Source: Flavobacterium sp. H122 (GTDB lineage: Bacteria; Bacteroidota; Bacteroidia; Flavobacteriales; Flavobacteriaceae). Taken from it: a stretch of 64,000 nucleotides of DNA. The notes below the pieces were generated by a model that had not been told where the DNA came from, searched no databases, and worked only from the letters and a program-made list of their open reading frames with translations. Location of the stretch: assembly GCF_004959765.1 (NCBI RefSeq), contig NZ_SJZD01000001.1, positions 1 through 64,000 on the forward strand. The letters are read 5' to 3'. Both the position numbers and the translations under genes were made by a program. This document shows, piece by piece, positions 50,583 to 59,941 of this stretch; the stretch's first letter is position 1; the number at the start of each line of letters is the position of its first letter.

Positions 50583-51602
50583 TCAGGAAGGGTCATTATA
50601 TACTAATGACGCATTGTTTATAACAGTTCTCATTCTCTGACGCAATCGTTCAGGTTTTAAAACTTCTAAACCGTCACCAAAACCTAATAAAATGCGTTCT
50701 AATTCATAATTTTCTATTAAAAATAAATTGATGACGATACTCCCGTCTTCATTTTGCTGTAATAGTCTTTGTGTATGATGAATGGGTTTGGTAATGACAT
50801 AAGGAGCATTGTAAGCATCTATCCATAATTGAATGACACGTGGTTTTAATCCTGCATTAACCGTTACACCTACAACATTGTTATAATAAGCTTCTGCATC
50901 AAACTTTTCAGTTAAGAAAGGCATGGAAAAATCATAATCAATTTTTACAATTCTGTCCAATGCTAAATTGGTAATAGGCTGGCTTTCTTTCTTTTTTCCA
51001 ACAACAAACCAGCGGTTGTTAAATTCTTTCAGAATAAAAGGATGAAAATTAAATTTTGTTTCGTCTCTGGATTTGAATGACTTATATGTAATTACCAAAA
51101 CTACTTTTTTAATTATAGCCTGATAGATTTCATCCAAAAGATGTAGCCCTTTCAGATTATCGTTTTTATCCAAATGAATTACAGGCTGTGTATGTGATTT
51201 TTCAGCGTAAATTTTATCTTCCAATCGCTGCAGTATATCCGAAACATCATTAAACAGTGAAAAATCTTTGAATTGCTTCAACATGGAAACCGTTTCTGTT
51301 AATACATTAATATCGGTTTCTGTCAGTGGAATATCAGTAATAGAGAAATCTTCTTCAGCATAATGGTAGTATTTTTTGTCATAGACTTCAATAGGCGCGT
51401 TGTAGCCTAACTTGTCACTGCGCATCAGTTGGATATCCAGCTGAATCGTTCTTTTGCTTACCGAAGAATCTTTCCCTTCATATTCATACAAAGCTTCAGA
51501 ACAAGCCTGCATTAAGTCTTCCAGTGTCCATTGGCGGTACTTGTTTTGCAGACATTTATCAATGGTTTTATAGCGGATGAGTGCGTTTTTGTTTTGAGCC
51601 AC
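50583..51602 (-). CDS. WYL-domain transcriptional regulator (YafY-type)
   Basis: 339 residues. An N-terminal helix-turn-helix (about 10-60, RYKTIDKCLQNKYRQWTLED) is followed by an extended WYL domain (about 150-250) whose signature is RWFVVGKKKESQPITNLALD. WYL domains bind ligands such as nucleic-acid or nucleotide species, and several regulate DNA- or RNA-damage responses. It lies downstream of the HD gene, divergent from ro60, and is the best candidate for the factor that reads the 19-bp palindrome. Confidence 0.88.
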   Translation of the reverse strand: MAQNKNALIRYKTIDKCLQNKYRQWTLEDLMQACSEALYEYEGKDSSVSKRTIQLDIQLMRSDKLGYNAPIEVYDKKYYHYAEEDFSITDIPLTETDINVLTETVSMLKQFKDFSLFNDVSDILQRLEDKIYAEKSHTQPVIHLDKNDNLKGLHLLDEIYQAIIKKVVLVITYKSFKSRDETKFNFHPFILKEFNNRWFVVGKKKESQPITNLALDRIVKIDYDFSMPFLTEKFDAEAYYNNVVGVTVNAGLKPRVIQLWIDAYNAPYVITKPIHHTQRLLQQNEDGSIVINLFLIENYELERILLGFGDGLEVLKPERLRQRMRTVINNASLVYNDPS

Positions 51603-51630
51603 GGTTTTGAATTATGAGTTATGATTTTTT

Positions 51631-52242
51631 TTAAAGAAGCTCTATTTCTTGTTTAATGTTTTGTCTTGCTTGTTGTTCATATAAATCCCGAAAAACTTTG
51701 GTTTGGTAAATGAATTCGTTTTCCAGAAAATGCAGTAATGCTTTTTTACGCCCGGGATTGTATAGAAAATCAGGATAAATCTTGTATTCTTTTCGTATTT
51801 GCTTAAAATAGGCTGTATAATCATCCCATTCCTTTGCAAGAATCTTTAAATCGAAATCAATCAGCCATTTTTCGTCTTCATTTTGGCTTGGCTGATGATT
51901 CTTGGTAGCCATGATCAATTGATAGATTCTGTCTTTATTTAATGCAGTATTTTCCGGAAGAATTTGTATAGCAAATTCGGCGCTTTTTTGTTCGTTGTCC
52001 TTTCGGCTGGATTTATATATATAATCGTGATAAAAAATTGCATACAGAACTTCATCAGGAAACTGAAGCTCATCGCGATACTTTTCAAAGCAGGCAATCA
52101 TCTCTTTTAAATGATTCAGGTTGTGATAATGCCTTGATTTATGCGAATAGGCTTTTTGAAGTTCATTCCATCTACTAAAAATTTCATTATTACTAAAGCC
52201 AATGTTTTCAAGGAGTCTATTGAATAATTGTTGCAATTCCAT
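51631..52242 (-). CDS. HD-superfamily metal-dependent phosphohydrolase (COG4339-like)
   Basis: 203 residues. Metal-ligand pattern HYHNLNHLKEMIACF, then AIFYHDYIYKSSRKDNEQKS (HD) and WLIDFDLKIL (distal Asp). These match predicted small HD phosphohydrolases. The in vivo substrate is unknown. The position next to the Ro60/RtcB locus suggests a nucleotide or RNA-end phosphate, which is inference only. It is the first gene of the minus-strand pair with the WYL regulator. Confidence 0.75.
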   Translation of the reverse strand: MELQQLFNRLLENIGFSNNEIFSRWNELQKAYSHKSRHYHNLNHLKEMIACFEKYRDELQFPDEVLYAIFYHDYIYKSSRKDNEQKSAEFAIQILPENTALNKDRIYQLIMATKNHQPSQNEDEKWLIDFDLKILAKEWDDYTAYFKQIRKEYKIYPDFLYNPGRKKALLHFLENEFIYQTKVFRDLYEQQARQNIKQEIELL

Positions 52243-52279
52243 TATAAAAGTTTTCTCAAAAATAGCATTCTTTTTTTAC

Positions 52280-52316
52280 TACGCAAAATAATTGCGTACA
52301 CGACTATGCATCTTTG
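52280..52316 (+). promoter_or_regulatory. palindromic operator and promoter, ro60 side (site 1)
   Basis: TACGCAAAATAATTGCGTA at 52280-52298 is a perfect 7-bp inverted repeat around AATAA. Ten bases later is CATCTTTG (52309-52316), a -7-like box. On the other strand the complement of 52257-52264 reads TATTTTTG, so the site could also serve the HD-WYL pair. There is no normal -33 TTTG at the right spacing. The arrangement fits an activated promoter. Confidence 0.75.
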
Positions 52317-52334
52317 CCATCTCGAAAGGAACAA

Positions 52335-53876
52335 ATGTTTAATTTAAAAGTAACCGAGATGAAATTTAATTATTTTAAAAGAGAAAAAAATGTAGTGACC
52401 AACTACGAAGGTGCAAAAGCATACAGCTTGACACCGGAAATGGAATTGTATTCAGCTGTGGTGACTTCGGGATTAAATGATGTTACTTACGAAAAAGGCA
52501 GTGACCGTTTAAAAAGAATCCAAAACCTGATTCAGAAATGTGATCCTGAGTTTACCGCTAAGTTGGCTGTATACGTTCGTAATGAAATGTATATGCGTTC
52601 TGTTCCAATGGTATTGACAGTGGAGTTGGCAAAAATCAATTCAGGCAATGGTTTAGTGAACAAAACGGTTCAGAAAGTTATTCAACGTGCTGATGAAATT
52701 ACAGAGCTTTTGGCTTATTATCAAGTTGCAAATAATCGTACTGAAACTAAAAAACTAAACCGTTTGTCGAAACAAATTCAAAAAGGATTATCTGAATCAT
52801 TCAACCGATTTGATGAATATCAGTTTGCAAAATATAACCGACAAGGTGAGGTGAAATTGCGTGATGCTTTGTTTTTGGTACATCCAAAAGCAAAAGATGA
52901 AGCACAGCAAGTAATTTTCAATAAAATTGCTGATAATAATCTGGCTGTTCCTTACACTTGGGAAACGGAGTTGTCACAAGTAGGTCAGCGTTCGTTTAAA
53001 AACGATGCAGAAAAGAAACAAGCCTTCAAAAAAAAGTGGGAAGAATTGATTGATAGCAACCGAGTGGGTTATATGGCGATGATGCGTAACCTACGCAACA
53101 TTATCGAGGCCGAAGTTTCATTCCAGCACATAGAAAAAGTTTGTCAGCATTTGAGTAATGCCAATGCAGTAGCGAATTCAAAACAATTGCCATTCCGGTT
53201 TCTGGCTGCCTATCGTGAGATCAAGGCCTTGAAATCCCGTTATACAGCAACGATTTTGGATGCTTTGGAAGATGCGGTAATGTACAGTGCGCAAAATATT
53301 AAAGGTTTTGATGGTAATACATCAGTAGTAATTGCTTGTGACGTTTCGGGTTCTATGCAGCAACCAATTTCTAAAAAGAGTAAAATACTATTGTATGATA
53401 TTGGTTTGATGTTGGGTATGCTGATGCAGTCGCGTTGTAAAAATGTGATAAGCGGTATGTTTGGTGATAAATGGAAAGTGATCAACATGTCAAAACGTAA
53501 TGTTTTGGCAAATGTTCAGGAGTTTTACCGACGTGAAGGTGAGGTAGGTTATTCTACAAACGGTTATTTGGTAATCGAGGATTTGATCAAGCGAAAAGAA
53601 ATCGTTGATAAAGTTATGTTATTTACCGATGTTCAAATGTGGAACAGTAATAGTACTGCTCATTCTTTTGAAAATTCATGGAATCGTTATAAAGCCATAG
53701 CACCAAATGCAAAATTGTATTTGTTCGATTTGGCGGGTCATGGTAACACACCATTGGATATAAAACAAAATGACGTACACTTGATTGCTGGTTGGTCAGA
53801 CAAAGTGTTTGACATATTGCATGCTTTGGAAAATAAAACCTCTGCTTTGCAATATATCAATAGTATTGGATTGTAA
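52335..53876 (+). CDS. rsr: Ro60/Rsr (TROVE and vWA domains)
   Basis: Ro60 is a ring-shaped RNA chaperone that binds Y RNAs and misfolded or damaged RNAs. I choose the ATG at 52335 (513 residues, MFNLKVTEMKFNYFKREKN), which follows an AAAGGA stretch; the frame from TTG at 52314 starts inside the -7 box. The TROVE HEAT-like repeats fill about residues 40-310 (TSGLNDVTYEKGSDRLKRI, FTAKLAVYVRNEMYMRSVPM). The vWA domain follows from about 325 with the MIDAS VVIACDVSGSMQQP and VMLFTDVQMW. It is transcribed from operator site 1. Confidence 0.95.
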   Translation: MFNLKVTEMKFNYFKREKNVVTNYEGAKAYSLTPEMELYSAVVTSGLNDVTYEKGSDRLKRIQNLIQKCDPEFTAKLAVYVRNEMYMRSVPMVLTVELAKINSGNGLVNKTVQKVIQRADEITELLAYYQVANNRTETKKLNRLSKQIQKGLSESFNRFDEYQFAKYNRQGEVKLRDALFLVHPKAKDEAQQVIFNKIADNNLAVPYTWETELSQVGQRSFKNDAEKKQAFKKKWEELIDSNRVGYMAMMRNLRNIIEAEVSFQHIEKVCQHLSNANAVANSKQLPFRFLAAYREIKALKSRYTATILDALEDAVMYSAQNIKGFDGNTSVVIACDVSGSMQQPISKKSKILLYDIGLMLGMLMQSRCKNVISGMFGDKWKVINMSKRNVLANVQEFYRREGEVGYSTNGYLVIEDLIKRKEIVDKVMLFTDVQMWNSNSTAHSFENSWNRYKAIAPNAKLYLFDLAGHGNTPLDIKQNDVHLIAGWSDKVFDILHALENKTSALQYINSIGL

Positions 53877-53880
53877 AAAA

Positions 53881-53911
53881 GCCGCAGTTGCAAAGGCTGC
53901 GGTAATTTTTA
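53881..53911 (+). terminator. ro60 terminator
   Basis: GCCGCAG (53881-53887) pairs with CTGCGGT (53897-53903), followed by AATTTTTAG. Confidence 0.8.
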
Positions 53912-53916
53912 GATAC

Positions 53917-53952
53917 TGCGTAAAATAATTGCGTAATAGGTATAAACTTTTG
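53917..53952 (+). promoter_or_regulatory. palindromic operator and promoter of the Y RNA array (site 2)
   Basis: TGCGTAAAATAATTGCGTA at 53917-53935 carries the same core AAAATAATTGCGTA as site 1; its left arm is TGCGTA, the reverse complement of TACGCA. Nine bases later AACTTTTG (53945-53952) is a -7-like box. The first Y RNA begins about 27 bases downstream. Confidence 0.75.
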
Positions 53953-53978
53953 TATCATAAAGTTAATTGAAAAATATA

Positions 53979-54123
53979 AACAAGTGCCGTAGATAAGTGT
54001 TACTTCGATTTTAACGACGGGGTCGCGGGTTCGAATCCCGTCTCTTCCACTAAGCATATAGAAAATGGGAGAGTAGCTCAGAGGTTAGAGCACGTAAATT
54101 TCATTTATCGTTTTTGCCTTGTT
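53979..54123 (+). ncRNA. Y RNA 1, with circularly permuted tRNA-like module
   Basis: By hand folding: terminal stem AACAAG/CTTGTT (53979-53984, 54118-54123), bulged T, GC/GC, internal loop, then GATAAGTG (53992-53999) paired with CATTTATC (54102-54109), then TTACTTCG. The inner module is a tRNA-like domain in permuted order: T-arm GCGGG-TTCGAAT-CCCGT (54025-54041), acceptor 3' strand CTCTTCC (54042-54048), a short loop, acceptor 5' strand GGGAGAG (54067-54073, with one G-T pair), D-arm GCTC-AGAGGTTA-GAGC (54076-54091). Ro60 partner RNAs of this kind are known to mimic tRNA (YrlA). It is the first RNA after site 2. Confidence 0.8.
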
Positions 54124-54129
54124 ATATTG

Positions 54130-54243
54130 TCAGGTGTTGTAAAAAAGAGTTACTTCGATTAAGATTCGTCAATTCAGGTTCGATTCCTGATTAATCGTCT
54201 AATGGTAAGACTACGGAAAGTCTATTTTTGATTGTTACCCTGA
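54130..54243 (+). ncRNA. Y RNA 2, T-arm and D-arm without acceptor stem
   Basis: Terminal stem TCAGG/CCTGA (54130-54134, 54239-54243), bulged T, GT/AC, stem AAAAAGAG/CTATTTTT with one G-A mismatch (54142-54149, 54222-54229), then TTACTTCG (54150-54157). T-arm TCAGG-TTCGATT-CCTGA (54174-54190); D-arm GTCT-AATGGTA-AGAC (54197-54211). Only six bases separate the T-arm and D-arm, so the acceptor stem has been lost. It begins 6 bases after Y RNA 1. Confidence 0.75.
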
Positions 54244-54328
54244 TTAATAAAAGAAATCATGAGATATTATAAAACAACACGTAAAGGAGCATTCTATAGA
54301 GCTATAAATCAATAGAATTGCAATTGAA

Positions 54329-54465
54329 AAAAAGAATGCCGTAGTGGCGTGTTACTTCGTCACCATTTAGGGGAGGAATAGCGAAGTTGTAAAACCAGCA
54401 AGGCTATCCGGTTCGACTCCGGCTTTGACTAGCCCCGTTTCATGCTACGATTTTTGCTTCTTTTT
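54329..54465 (+). ncRNA. Y RNA 3, T-arm with altered tRNA-like module
   Basis: Terminal stem AAAAAGAA/TTCTTTTT (54329-54336, 54458-54465), bulged T, GC/GC, then GTGGCGTG (54344-54351) paired with CATGCTAC (54441-54448) and TTACTTCG (54352-54359). The T-arm is CCGG-TTCGACT-CCGG (54408-54422). A GGGG/CCCC closing pair (54370-54373 with 54433-54436) bounds the module, but I find no D-arm. Confidence 0.75.
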
Positions 54466-54470
54466 AAAAA

Positions 54471-54558
54471 ATAAGATGCCGGTTATAAGTGTTACTTCGT
54501 TGGTTGATTTTACATAGGTTCGAGTCCTATAGAAACATTTATAAATCATTGCTCTTAT
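54471..54558 (+). ncRNA. Y RNA 4, T-arm only
   Basis: Terminal stem ATAAGA/TCTTAT (54471-54476, 54553-54558), bulged T, GC/GC, then TTATAAGTG (54483-54491) paired with CATTTATAA (54536-54544) and TTACTTCG (54492-54499). The inner module is reduced to a single T-arm hairpin ATAGG-TTCGAGT-CCTAT (54514-54530). Confidence 0.78.
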
Positions 54559-54562
54559 ATAT

Positions 54563-54634
54563 AAAGAGTGTCGTACTGTATAGTTACTTCGTATTCCAAA
54601 TGAACTCCAGACTATGCAGACCTGTTACCTCTTT
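54563..54634 (+). ncRNA. Y RNA 5, minimal, no tRNA-like module
   Basis: Terminal stem AAAGAG/CTCTTT (54563-54568, 54629-54634), bulged T, GT/AC, then CTGTATAG (54576-54583) paired with CTATGCAG (54612-54619) and TTACTTCG (54584-54591). Only 20 bases lie inside. T-run after the terminal stem may end the array transcript. Confidence 0.75.
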
Positions 54635-54705
54635 TTAAAATAAAATATACTATGTAAATTAATCGTGTAGTAATTTTAAAAATCGTTTTAAAAAAATTAA
54701 TAGAT

Positions 54706-55266
54706 ATGAAAAATTCAGAATTTGAAATCCATCCTTTTAATGAAGTTTTTTATATAGAATCTTTATTAAACAAAACACGTTCAATTTTGGATGATGTTGA
54801 AGCATTAAACGATTTTTGGAAGAACGGAAATCATGATTGTCAATTTGATGATGTCATTTTGGATATGTTTCAAAATATCATTCTTAATGCAGCAGGAATT
54901 TCCCGTTTTTTTTGGCCTTCAAAGAATACTGGATATCATAAAATTAGAGCGAAAAAGTTACGCGAAGTTTATAGTGTTAGCAATTCAAGTGTTTTGAAAA
55001 ATCGAGAAATGAGGAATCTTATCGAACATTTTGATGAGAAATTAGATGATTTTTTAAAAGAATTTGTTGCTGGAAAAGTCATGCCAAAATACGTGGGGCC
55101 AATGTTCTTTTCATATAAAACTACAATATTTTTTAGAGCATTTATTTTTGATAAATTCATTTTTAAGATTTTCAATGTGGAATATGAAATAAATCCAATA
55201 ATAGCTGAAATTAAAAGAATTCATGAGATTTTATTACTACAACTAGAAAATGGTGGTCGATTTTAA
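54706..55266 (+). CDS. HEPN-like protein between Y RNA array and rtcB
   Basis: 186 residues, all helical, with REMRNLIEHFDEKLDDF near residues 100-115. RNLIEH is an Rx4H motif typical of HEPN ribonucleases. HEPN nucleases cut RNA leaving 2',3'-cyclic phosphate ends, which RtcB can reseal. The context therefore fits a nuclease or an RNA-binding relative in this RNA-repair locus; that is inference. No toxin/antitoxin partner is visible. It precedes operator site 3 by a few bases. Confidence 0.5.
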   Translation: MKNSEFEIHPFNEVFYIESLLNKTRSILDDVEALNDFWKNGNHDCQFDDVILDMFQNIILNAAGISRFFWPSKNTGYHKIRAKKLREVYSVSNSSVLKNREMRNLIEHFDEKLDDFLKEFVAGKVMPKYVGPMFFSYKTTIFFRAFIFDKFIFKIFNVEYEINPIIAEIKRIHEILLLQLENGGRF

Positions 55267-55270
55267 AATC

Positions 55271-55306
55271 CACGCAAAATAATTGCGCAGTAACTTTTCA
55301 ACTTTG
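55271..55306 (+). promoter_or_regulatory. palindromic operator and promoter of the rtcB leader (site 3)
   Basis: CACGCAAAATAATTGCGCA at 55271-55289 matches the shared 19-bp palindrome with one change in each end, preserving the core AAAATAATT. CAACTTTG (55299-55306) follows after 9 bases as a -7-like box. Confidence 0.75.
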
Positions 55307-55370
55307 TATCATCAAAATGAAACAACCCAGTAATGTAAATAAAATTGCCGGGAATAAAATAAAAAAACAA

Positions 55371-55563
55371 GACCTTGTAGCTTAAAAGGAAAAGCCTATA
55401 GCAAAATTACGTACTATAGAGTTTACGGATATTCCGGTTAGACCTGCGCGGACTAATGGGTAGAATTTACAGAGGCACCGAAATCGTGAGGGAAAGTAGG
55501 GAAGCGTATTTAGAGCCGTAATGCCCGGGAGGGAATGTGAGTTCGAATCTCACCAAGGCCACA
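55371..55563 (+). ncRNA. tRNA-like RNA with large insert, in the rtcB leader
   Basis: In normal tRNA order: acceptor 5' strand GACCTTG (55371-55377), TA, D-arm GCTT-AAAAGGAA-AAGC (55380-55395), an anticodon-like hairpin CTATAG-12-base loop-CTATAG (55396-55419), a 117-base insert (55420-55536) partly closed by TTACGG/CCGTAA (55423-55428, 55516-55521), T-arm GTGAG-TTCGAAT-CTCAC (55537-55553), acceptor 3' strand CAAGGCC (55554-55560). There is one A-C mismatch in the acceptor. The end is ACA rather than CCA, and rtcB starts 15 bases later. Not a conventional tRNA. Confidence 0.65.
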
Positions 55564-55577
55564 AAAAAAATTGAATT

Positions 55578-56999
55578 ATGAACACACCCATCAACAGAAA
55601 CGATTTACTAGCCATTGGTTATGAATCAAGTGAGGCATTAGGAATTGCCTTGAGAATCAACAAAAAAAGACTTGGTTTTACCCGTGAGCAAATGATGGCG
55701 CATTATAAAAATGTCCTAGAATCACCTGAAAATTATCTGGACGATAAGAATTTCAGCAAATTGGCTTCGGCTTTAATTGAAAAGGCAAACCATAAACCGA
55801 AAGATTTTATCAGTTTTAATCCAAATCCGAAAGATTATACGCTTTTCGGTGCCGCACATATCGAGGAAGGAGCCAAAAAACAAATGGAAGTTGCCATGAA
55901 GTTACCGGTTACGGTTGCCGGTGCCTTAATGCCCGATGCTCACCAAGGTTATGGATTGCCAATCGGTGGTGTATTAGCTACCAACAATGCCATCATACCA
56001 TATGGTGTTGGTGTCGATATTGGTTGCAGAATGGCATTATCGGTTTATGATATTCCGGAACTATTTTATTATGAAAACGAATCCAAATTCAAACGTGAGT
56101 TGACAGCACATTCAAAATTTGGTGCCGGACATGGTTTCCACGGACAGTACAAATCAGACCATGAAGTATTGGAAAGAAAAGAGTTTGACGACCACTCGTT
56201 TATTAAAAATCTGAAGGATAAGGCCTGGTCGCAACTGGGGACTTCGGGAGGCGGAAATCATTTTGTGGAGTTTGGTATTATGGAATTCATGGAAGATGAT
56301 GCCGAATTGAATATTCCCAAAGGGAAGTACGTTGCTTTACTGACACATTCCGGTTCAAGAGGATTGGGAGCCACCATTGCCGGTCATTATACCAAAATGG
56401 CAAAACAGGTTTGTAAACTGCCTTATGAAGCGCAAAACTTAGCGTATTTGGATTTAAATTCAGAATTGGGTCAGGAATACTGGATTGCCATGAATCTGGC
56501 TGGAGATTATGCCTCTGCCTGTCATGAAATCATTCACGATAAAATGAAAAAAGCTTTAGGAGCAACCGTTTTGGCTAAAGTAGAAAACCATCATAATTTC
56601 GCATGGAAAGAAATCTGGAACGGAGAGGAAGTGATTGTTCATAGAAAAGGAGCCACACCGGCAGGAAAAGGTGTGATGGGAATTATTCCTGGAAGTATGA
56701 CTGCGCCGGGATTCTTAGTGAGAGGAAAAGGCGAGGAGCAAGCGATTAATTCAGCTTCGCACGGGGCAGGCCGTCAAATGAGCCGAACAAAAGCCATTCA
56801 AAATATAACGAAAAATGATATGCAGGCCATATTAAAAGATCATGGCGTAACTTTAATTGGTGCCGGTTTAGATGAAGCACCTATGGCGTACAAAGACATT
56901 AATCTAGTCATGGAATCCCAAAAGGATTTGGTTGATGTGGTTGCTAAGTTTACACCAAAGATGGTACGTATGGCAGATGACGGAAGCAGGGAGGATTAA
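55578..56999 (+). CDS. rtcB: RNA-splicing ligase RtcB
   Basis: RtcB joins 2',3'-cyclic phosphate or 3'-phosphate ends to 5'-OH ends with GTP and Mn2+. 473 residues. Metal- and GTP-binding motifs: GVGVDIGCRM (Asp and Cys), GTSGGGNHFVEFG, LTHSGSRGLGATI, KVENHHNFAW and the nucleophile SHGAGRQMSR (H of HGxGR). The protein is full length. No RtcA or archease gene lies beside it. Its leader carries a tRNA-like RNA and operator site 3. Confidence 0.95.
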   Translation: MNTPINRNDLLAIGYESSEALGIALRINKKRLGFTREQMMAHYKNVLESPENYLDDKNFSKLASALIEKANHKPKDFISFNPNPKDYTLFGAAHIEEGAKKQMEVAMKLPVTVAGALMPDAHQGYGLPIGGVLATNNAIIPYGVGVDIGCRMALSVYDIPELFYYENESKFKRELTAHSKFGAGHGFHGQYKSDHEVLERKEFDDHSFIKNLKDKAWSQLGTSGGGNHFVEFGIMEFMEDDAELNIPKGKYVALLTHSGSRGLGATIAGHYTKMAKQVCKLPYEAQNLAYLDLNSELGQEYWIAMNLAGDYASACHEIIHDKMKKALGATVLAKVENHHNFAWKEIWNGEEVIVHRKGATPAGKGVMGIIPGSMTAPGFLVRGKGEEQAINSASHGAGRQMSRTKAIQNITKNDMQAILKDHGVTLIGAGLDEAPMAYKDINLVMESQKDLVDVVAKFTPKMVRMADDGSRED

Positions 57000-57050
57000 G
57001 AAGAAAACTGTCCGGAAAGTAAAAAATCAACGCTCGTTTTGTTGCTCTAA

Positions 57051-59546: not shown

Positions 59547-59582
59547 TACGCAAAATAATTACGTAGTTAGAATTCATCTTTG
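59547..59582 (+). promoter_or_regulatory. palindromic operator and promoter of an orphan gene (site 4)
   Basis: TACGCAAAATAATTACGTA at 59547-59565 differs from site 1 only at base 61 of the line (G to A) and lies in a wider AACTACG...CGTAGTT inverted repeat. CATCTTTG (59575-59582) follows after 9 bases, identical to the site 1 box. Confidence 0.75.
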
Positions 59583-59596
59583 CTCCAAAAATTGAA

Positions 59597-59941
59597 ATGA
59601 TGCAAAATCGTTATAACAAAGGTAGGTTTAGAGGACATGAATATGGAAAAATTCCACCGTACTTGAAAAAGCTAGGGAATAAAAAATGGAGACGAACTCC
59701 AATTGAGGAAACAAAGCTATTACCCACTGAATTATTCTTTGAAACAAAAGTACAGCTGCCTACAAAAGCATCCAAATCAAAAGAACGTATAAAAGTCAAG
59801 ATAACTTTTCTAGAATTCAACCAAGTTAAGTCAACAAAACACGTGACTTATAAAAACATAAAATCTCTAAAGGATAGCATTAAAAGAAATAATGTAATTA
59901 ATGTGGTAGATACAAACAAAAAAATACAAATACACAAATGA
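59597..59941 (+). CDS. small basic protein of unknown function, under the shared operator
   Basis: 114 residues, very rich in Lys/Arg/Asn (MMQNRYNKGRFRGHEYGKIP, KLGNKKWRRTPIEETKLLP) with KERIKVKITFLEF and HVTYKNIKSLKDSIKRNNV. No family recognised. Its composition would suit nucleic-acid binding. It has no other gene in its unit and is driven by operator site 4, so it is placed in the same regulon as ro60, the Y RNAs and rtcB. Confidence 0.6.
   Translation: MMQNRYNKGRFRGHEYGKIPPYLKKLGNKKWRRTPIEETKLLPTELFFETKVQLPTKASKSKERIKVKITFLEFNQVKSTKHVTYKNIKSLKDSIKRNNVINVVDTNKKIQIHK

Follow-up and report, generated by a model that had tools for sequence, protein, structure and literature searches.

We describe here a set of candidate RNA-repair genes and small RNAs in the first 64,000 nucleotides (nt) of contig NZ_SJZD01000001.1 of Flavobacterium sp. 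H122 (hereafter the window), together with a palindrome that recurs in front of them. Positions 50583–57000 hold a predicted transcription factor of the WYL-WCX kind with an N-terminal helical DNA-binding region (50583–51602, minus strand), an HD-superfamily phosphohydrolase lying between it and the divergent promoter (51631–52242, minus strand) and, all on the plus strand, Ro60/Rsr (52335–53876), five Y RNAs, an open reading frame (ORF) of 186 residues with a HEPN-like motif (54706–55266) and the RNA ligase RtcB (55578–56999). Apart from the HEPN-like ORF, which is called by its motif, Pfam, PHROG and an explicit Y RNA detector recovered the parts of the block named in the original prediction, including its five-copy Y RNA array (53979–54634). 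The predicted inventory of genes is confirmed, though a tRNA-like RNA with acceptor stem, D arm and T arm (about 55371–55560, plus strand) had not been distinguished, and the predicted extent is too short, as the set continues to 59547–59941 and to contig position 71716, outside the window.

The family assignments differ in strength. Ro60 has both domains of the bacterial protein, TROVE (PF05731, 3.5e-31; solved TROVE-domain proteins at 6e-31) and vWA (vWA_Ro60, 1.4e-6), and scores 24 bits against the cutoff of 900 for the NCBIfam Rsr equivalog. RtcB matches PF01139 (4.1e-83), aligns to solved RtcB and contains the motif HGAGR, whose histidine we take to be the catalytic residue. No RtcA was matched among the block ORFs given to Pfam, the rest of the genome not having been searched. 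The HD protein is assigned through PHROG 19425, a phosphohydrolase family (5.4e-28); its match to Pfam HD_3 is weak (0.17) and below the cutoff. The WYL protein matches PF13280 (WYL, 1.1e-9) and PF25583 (WCX, 2e-12) and was aligned with its relatives (alignment A2, 27 sequences). The solved folds nearest to its model are DriD (1e-12), PafBC (6e-11) and CapW/BrxR (2e-7), which gives it the WYL-WCX fold of activators of the PafBC/DriD kind, at 13–17% identity to full-length DriD and PafBC chains in structural alignment and with TM-scores to whole chains below 0.5 when normalised by query length.

The palindrome has the form TRCGYA-N7-TRCGYA (TACGCAAAATAATTGCGTA) and occurs four times in the window at up to three mismatches, compared to 0.02 expected from shuffles. 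When at most two mismatches are allowed there are five copies, the sole such sites in the 3.33-Mb genome, and three further genome sites match with three mismatches. The first (52280–52298, −7 TTTG at 52313–52316) leads Ro60, the second (53917–53935, TTTG at 53949–53952) the Y RNA array, the third (55271–55289, TTTG at 55303–55306) the tRNA-like RNA and rtcB, and the fourth (59547–59565, TTTG at 59579–59582; all four on the plus strand) an ORF of 114 residues (59597–59941, plus strand) without a Pfam match, whose 46% relative in locus L080 likewise stands behind a palindrome. Behind the fifth, at contig position 71716, come an ORF of 130 residues, a permuted tRNA-like RNA in tandem form and a protein of the SPFH/Band-7 family (PF01145, 1.3e-28). 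The palindrome had been called private to the WYL protein; it is not confined to the divergent promoter and marks several promoters, five in this genome. A TTG codon at 52314, proposed as the start of Ro60, falls within the −7 box of the first site, and on this reading a start at 52335 or 52359 is more likely.

We surveyed the sites in 101 sources, namely the window, a further stretch of the same genome (L009), 80 Ro60 loci and 19 other loci. Entering each site in both orientations gave 561 distinct oriented sequences, of which 155 have TTTG 23 nt from the palindrome centre and 83 at 24 nt; no other distance accounts for more than 37. In not one of those 238 does a TTTG also stand at the −33 spacing. 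Judged from these spacings, the palindrome is a promoter element that takes the place of the −33 box, at a fixed 23–24 nt from the −7 TTTG. It thus has the placement of WYL activator sites, over the −35/−33 region at a fixed distance from the −10/−7 box, and would be bound there by the WYL protein. In more distant Bacteroidota (L117, L118, L135 and L154) the centre of the palindrome is variant and the arms are kept, so that a clade-by-clade co-evolution of the site with its regulator is possible.

The Ro60 loci are the best 80 of 439 relatives, so that a count of 80 of 80 speaks for near relatives. In all of them a site lies within 400 nt upstream, in 79 with TTTG at 23 or 24 nt, compared to 7 of 1600 shuffled regions. 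WYL is found at 36 (at 33 within 3 kb of Ro60), RtcB at 24 and the HD gene at 20. Across the 101 sources we catalogued 253 site-plus-box promoters, 74 of them without an ORF within 400 nt; the catalogue is not exhaustive and ORFs were annotated through representatives. The first ORF is Ro60 at 83 sites in 80 sources and RtcB at 17. Others are a small protein with an FPHG stretch inside Y arrays (27 sites; 25 ORFs behind palindromes in 16 sources, without a family match; for instance L078:12294-12554), a T4-type RNA ligase (8; representative PF09511, 9.4e-20), DUF6584 (7), WYL itself (6, all at loci whose WYL is 42–50% identical to that of the window), an RNase-T-type exonuclease (6), a Hen1-like protein (5 sites in 4 sources; PF22032, 1.5e-64), the 130-residue ORF (4), a SUKH-type protein (3), RlaP (2; PF10127, 3.1e-77) and a TatD-type nuclease (1; PF01026, 5.6e-70). 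The recognised genes led by the site are, by family match, largely RNA-repair genes. The TatD-type gene (L104:2927-3712) lies about 6 kb upstream of Ro60 behind a palindrome and −7 box, and is the only one of its kind that we recognised among the catalogued sites.

The sites also follow the regulator across genomes. Considering WYL proteins of at least 60% identity as close orthologues (G172 counted though in pieces; the fragmented G031 left out, its 64-residue piece, at 67%, being too short), 51 of 150 genomes of the genus have a close WYL and 60 have sites: 50 have both, 1 the WYL only, 10 a site only and 89 neither (Fisher p 1.7e-28). All 43 genomes with at least two sites have a close WYL, and each of the ten site-only genomes has a single site. 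The site pattern read backwards gives 3 matches compared to 170. When G141, G024, G153 and the ten site-only genomes were searched with a profile, 8 of these 13 proved to have WYL relatives, whereas G090, G060, G095, G127 and G155 gave none; four of the ten site-only genomes have a distant full-length WYL (G022, G027 and G130 at 48%, G017 at 36%). Ro60 occurs in 11 of the 150, nine with a close WYL and two (G024 and G153) with a WYL of 46%.

A similar picture emerges beyond the genus. In Chryseobacterium and Epilithonimonas no WYL lies within the examined flanks of Ro60, and all 13 genomes searched have a relative of 49–52% elsewhere; at 10 of these 13 WYL loci there is a site, and at 9 of the 10 an RtcB-type gene (27–32%). 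A profile search of the phylum matched WYL in 61 of 395 genomes (31 of 170 genera), and of 30 loci inspected 21 have the site with its −7 box and none has reversed arms. RtcR (PF06956) was not found in the 150 genomes of the genus, the Escherichia coli control being positive. The order WYL-(HD)-palindrome-Ro60 or -RtcB is not confined to this strain, recurring in Flavobacterium, Pedobacter, Taibaiella and others. The proposal of a control logic different from that of RtcR operons is thus supported by comparative genomics, in that palindrome and WYL mostly occur together even when WYL and Ro60 separate, and RtcR is found in none of the 150.

The array behind the second palindrome is made up of Y RNA 1, a Ro60-type stem enclosing a circularly permuted tRNA (53979–54123; detector and covariation); Y RNA 2, assigned by eye to a second permuted-tRNA class (54129–54244; detector and clustering); Y RNA 3, with a GGGG..CCCC insert and a T arm, unpermuted as judged by eye (54331–54463; detector, cluster of 47 members); Y RNA 4, whose insert is a T-arm hairpin (54471–54558; detector and clustering); and Y RNA 5, a minimal stem-loop (54563–54634; detector and folding), all on the plus strand. 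An explicit search for stem and motif finds 399 Y RNAs in 81 sources, compared to 1 in reverse complements and 4 in reversed sequence. They occur at 79 of the 80 Ro60 loci (median 5, maximum 11 per locus); 214 of the 399 have T-loop inserts, and members of the permuted-tRNA-class clusters are found in 67 of the 81 sources, insert classes being named from few examples per cluster.

Folded alone, Y RNAs 1 and 5 have z-scores of −2.6 and −2.76. The folds of Y RNAs 2, 3 and 4 are not significant (−0.42, −0.74 and −1.44, the last matched by 15 of 200 shuffles), so we relied on comparison instead. Y RNA 1 runs in the order T arm, acceptor 3′ strand, loop, acceptor 5′ strand, D arm. Its alignment takes in 41 of 60 eligible sequences, and helices 1 and 2 were partly preselected by the detector, helices 3–5 not for pairing. 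Paired cells amount to 95.3%, compared to 79.3% when shuffled and 39–49% when slid. Both partners have changed in 24 of 30 pairs; for the permuted acceptor stem the count is 7 of 7, for the T arm 4 of 5. With covariation this strong, we conclude from the alignment that Y RNA 1 is a circularly permuted tRNA. The array thus has the features by which Y RNAs are recognised, a bulged terminal stem of Ro60 type near Ro60 and a tRNA-like domain in at least one member. The Rfam YrlA score of Y RNA 1 is 32.7 bits, under the gathering threshold of 69; at that threshold Rfam reports RNase P alone in the window.

Some Y RNAs in other genomes have a part of ribosomal RNA instead. Nine related RNAs of about 220 nt (8 of the 399 detector matches, plus one in L104 that was spotted by eye and missed by the detector) have an insert opening with 23S rRNA sequence 1911–1941, helix 69, within a stretch resembling helices 69–71: L132:13607-13830, L133:14525-14746, L140:13841-14060, L143:13298-13517, L129:13416-13635, L131:13548-13767, L141:14331-14550, L104:12353-12576 and L081:13009-13227. 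L132 matches the E. coli 23S rRNA at 31 of 31 positions, and seven others were matched by BLAST at 87–97% over 24–31 nt. The Rfam large-subunit model gives the L132 stretch 15.2 bits, at a cutoff of 50. The consensus fold has a 3-base-pair hairpin with the helix-69 loop, which is shorter in L081 and L104. No member of the array in the window is of this kind. In a further cluster (cluster 6; for instance L104:11955-12076) 11 Y RNAs share a hairpin insert, GAATAACAGTAAGGA in most examples seen, which was unmatched in E. coli rRNA and the two tRNAs tested. At L210, L211, L215, L223 and L235, from genomes in which Ro60 was not found, the palindrome is followed by a short Y-like stem, GTTACTTC ... 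ATTACC.

The tRNA-like RNA before rtcB was defined by comparison of 15 sequences, the one here among them, of which 13 differ when taken from acceptor to acceptor; mean column identity is 84%, and the RNA of L117 diverges in the 3′ half. Its D arm and T arm are separated by 141 nt. Of 45 predicted pairs 11 are changed on both sides, and these belong to the acceptor stem and to inner helices. Rfam returned a chance match and a tRNA match to the T arm only. ARAGORN detects no tRNA genes within the window, which sets the tRNA-like RNAs apart from ordinary ones. An origin from rRNA was considered for this RNA and rejected, the comparison giving short chance matches of at most 14 nt.

Several known systems resemble parts of this arrangement. 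The Salmonella rsr-yrlBA-rtcBA operon (PMC7790460) likewise has Ro60, tRNA-like Y RNAs and RtcB in one block. It is controlled by RtcR, whereas here there is a WYL protein with a repeated palindrome; the block also differs in having three palindrome promoters, up to 11 Y RNAs detected per locus and no RtcA among the ORFs given to Pfam, so that neither RtcR nor RtcA beside rtcB, the marks of an RtcR-controlled operon, was found. The sites of DriD in Caulobacter are reported to extend over −35 and to keep a constant spacing to −10 (PMC12340889); DriD is a WYL-WCX factor with a divergent partner operon, as here. The palindrome geometry also resembles the −26 arrangement of PafBC, another WYL-WCX factor (PMC11804915). 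In Anabaena the TrcR regulon (PMC10272220) places a tRNA array, a hypothetical-slipin pair and rtcB under a single regulator, and thus brings comparable parts together independently; TrcR is a repressor, unlike the predicted role of the regulator here, and the term WYL is absent from that main text. Unlike those of DriD and PafBC, the genes led by the site here are RNA-repair genes, and we infer the dimer and the ligand.

Partnerships of Ro60, Y RNA, RtcB and SPFH proteins, as well as tRNA-like Y RNAs, are already known. Burroughs and Aravind reportedly described, in 2016, RNA-repair associations of Ro/TROVE and SPFH proteins with Y RNA and tRNA-like RNA, and Chen is said to have described tRNA-like bacterial Y RNAs in 2014. 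The permuted tRNA insert is probably of the known YrlA kind, and one tRNA-like RNA here may be that of Burroughs and Aravind. To our knowledge neither work contains the WYL palindrome regulon or the 23S-like Y insert, and a literature search of open-licence texts found neither the regulon nor Y RNAs with helix 69 in print.

We consider the locus a local copy of a Bacteroidota RNA-damage regulon, in which the WYL protein would be an activator acting through the palindrome, and give this reading a probability of about 0.72. Co-regulation of the genes, binding by WYL and RNA damage as the signal are inferences from sequence. A WYL dimer would bind the palindrome and activate the housekeeping polymerase in the manner of DriD and PafBC, triggered when the WYL domains bind a nucleic-acid fragment signalling damaged RNA. 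RtcB would then seal cleaved RNAs, and Ro60 rings with their Y RNAs would deal with or sort damaged molecules that resemble tRNA or rRNA, with the imitations of tRNA and helix 69 perhaps serving as platform or decoy for the enzymes acting on the genuine molecules, be they nucleases, exonucleases or modification enzymes. The system resembles an alarm dedicated to broken RNA and differs in construction from that of Salmonella. It suggests, in a form open to testing, how RNA repair might be turned on in bacteria that lack RtcR. A recognisable DNA site would unite RNA-repair genes that otherwise lie scattered, as members of one regulon, and with it further candidate members can be listed in sequenced Bacteroidota. 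Y RNAs, moreover, can bear parts of rRNA besides those of tRNA, and the array permits asking, module by module, what their inserts bind. More tentatively, and as a possibility we would hold at less than even odds, the whole may be an SOS-like response to RNA damage, in which a WYL activator triggered by broken RNA opens all palindrome promoters, and ligases and end-protecting enzymes act along with Ro60-held imitations of tRNA (permuted or unpermuted) and helix 69, which capture or divert nucleases attacking those sites.

Several observations weigh against the activator reading. WYL is present in G141, where no site was found under the pattern used, and G031, with its 64-residue piece, has none either. 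G090 has a site, the SPFH gene and its RNA with WYL undetected, and looks like a true exception. L110, a metagenome-assembled genome of Flavobacteriales, has a site at Ro60 and yields just a weak partial WYL match (29%). Three of the 13 Chryseobacterium-type WYL loci and 9 of the 30 phylum loci, 3 of the latter beside Ro60, are without a site. The promoter boxes, TAnnTTTG at −7 and TTTG at −33, are a general consensus for Bacteroidota, and the lack of a −33 box is a consequence of the palindrome occupying that stretch. The predicted WYL structure is middling (predicted local distance difference test, pLDDT, 77; predicted template modelling score, pTM, 0.49). One site leads a TatD-type nuclease, and many other site-led ORFs are without a recognised function. 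Additionally, PafBC is reported to respond to single-stranded DNA (ssDNA) and not to single-stranded RNA (PMC11804915), so that the signal could be DNA damage.

The alternative that survives best, though we think it doubtful, is accordingly a regulon answering DNA damage, in which WYL senses ssDNA like DriD, PafBC and SiwR and RNA repair is one arm. For the nearest folds ssDNA is the demonstrated ligand, mitomycin C induces the Salmonella operon (PMC7790460), and the TatD-type gene would fit; yet among the representatives annotated in our non-exhaustive catalogue no DNA-repair gene other than TatD was recognised behind a site.

It is unlikely, somewhat more so than a DNA-damage signal, that the WYL protein is a repressor blocking the −33 region and relieved by a ligand. 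The palindrome does cover that region, and at the six loci with a WYL relative of 42–50% it also leads the WYL gene. BrxR and CapW, which are among the fold matches of the WYL model, are ligand-relieved repressors; TrcR, which acts as a repressor in Anabaena, belongs to a different family. TrcR controls a tRNA operon, rtcB and the hypothetical-slipin pair, its repression being relieved by translation-targeting antibiotics (PMC10272220). However, the best fold matches are activators, the spacing from palindrome to −7 box is fixed, and with no −33 TTTG in 238 promoters and a site centre that varies between clades the promoters look weak unaided.

As for the helix-69-like stretch, we think it improbable that, instead of being a functional mimic, it was left behind by a homing element or intron at 23S site 1923. 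The stretch coincides with what we take to be the I-CeuI target, and the remainder of the insert has no similarity to 16S or 23S rRNA scoring above the highest shuffle (5 of the 9 sequences). Against this, nine loci have it enclosed in a Ro60-type stem, mean column identity reaches 87% when the whole RNA is counted, and the small CGU/ACG hairpin is paired in 9 of 9. Least probable of all is that another factor binds the palindrome and WYL is a mere neighbour, as G090 and L110 with sites and no close WYL might suggest, given the co-occurrence across 150 genomes and at the separate Chryseobacterium loci. The single sites of the remaining site-only genomes may be due to chance.

Two further parts of the set deserve mention. 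The ORF before rtcB, predicted to be a HEPN-motif protein, has the motif RNLIEH, invariant as RN[LH]IEH in 6 sequences and fitting Rx4-6H, presumably the HEPN ribonuclease motif; its putative membership of the family is based on this motif, as Pfam gave no HEPN match and the AlphaFold model is poor (pLDDT 50). It is preceded by a degenerate palindrome (54648–54669, plus strand; direct repeat D4, 77%). The gene is found at 66% identity or more in 5 of the 150 genomes including this one (four relatives at 66–73%), with three others at 30–37%, and at none of the 80 Ro60 loci. It stands beside rtcB in G076 and G135. The distance to an upstream site is 38 nt in both G135 and G159, and 70 nt in G076. 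As far as gene neighbourhood can tell, it is an accessory of the set.

The other part is the group behind the fifth palindrome. A conserved RNA (L009:11165-11740) separates the palindrome and 130-residue ORF from the SPFH gene, with relatives at L231, L217, L136, L128 and L143, and this RNA appears by eye to consist of two tandem permuted tRNA modules with anticodon-like hairpins. Four tRNA genes (Arg-acg, Arg-tct, Asp-gtc and Pro-tgg; L009:10342-10675) stop just short of this palindrome.

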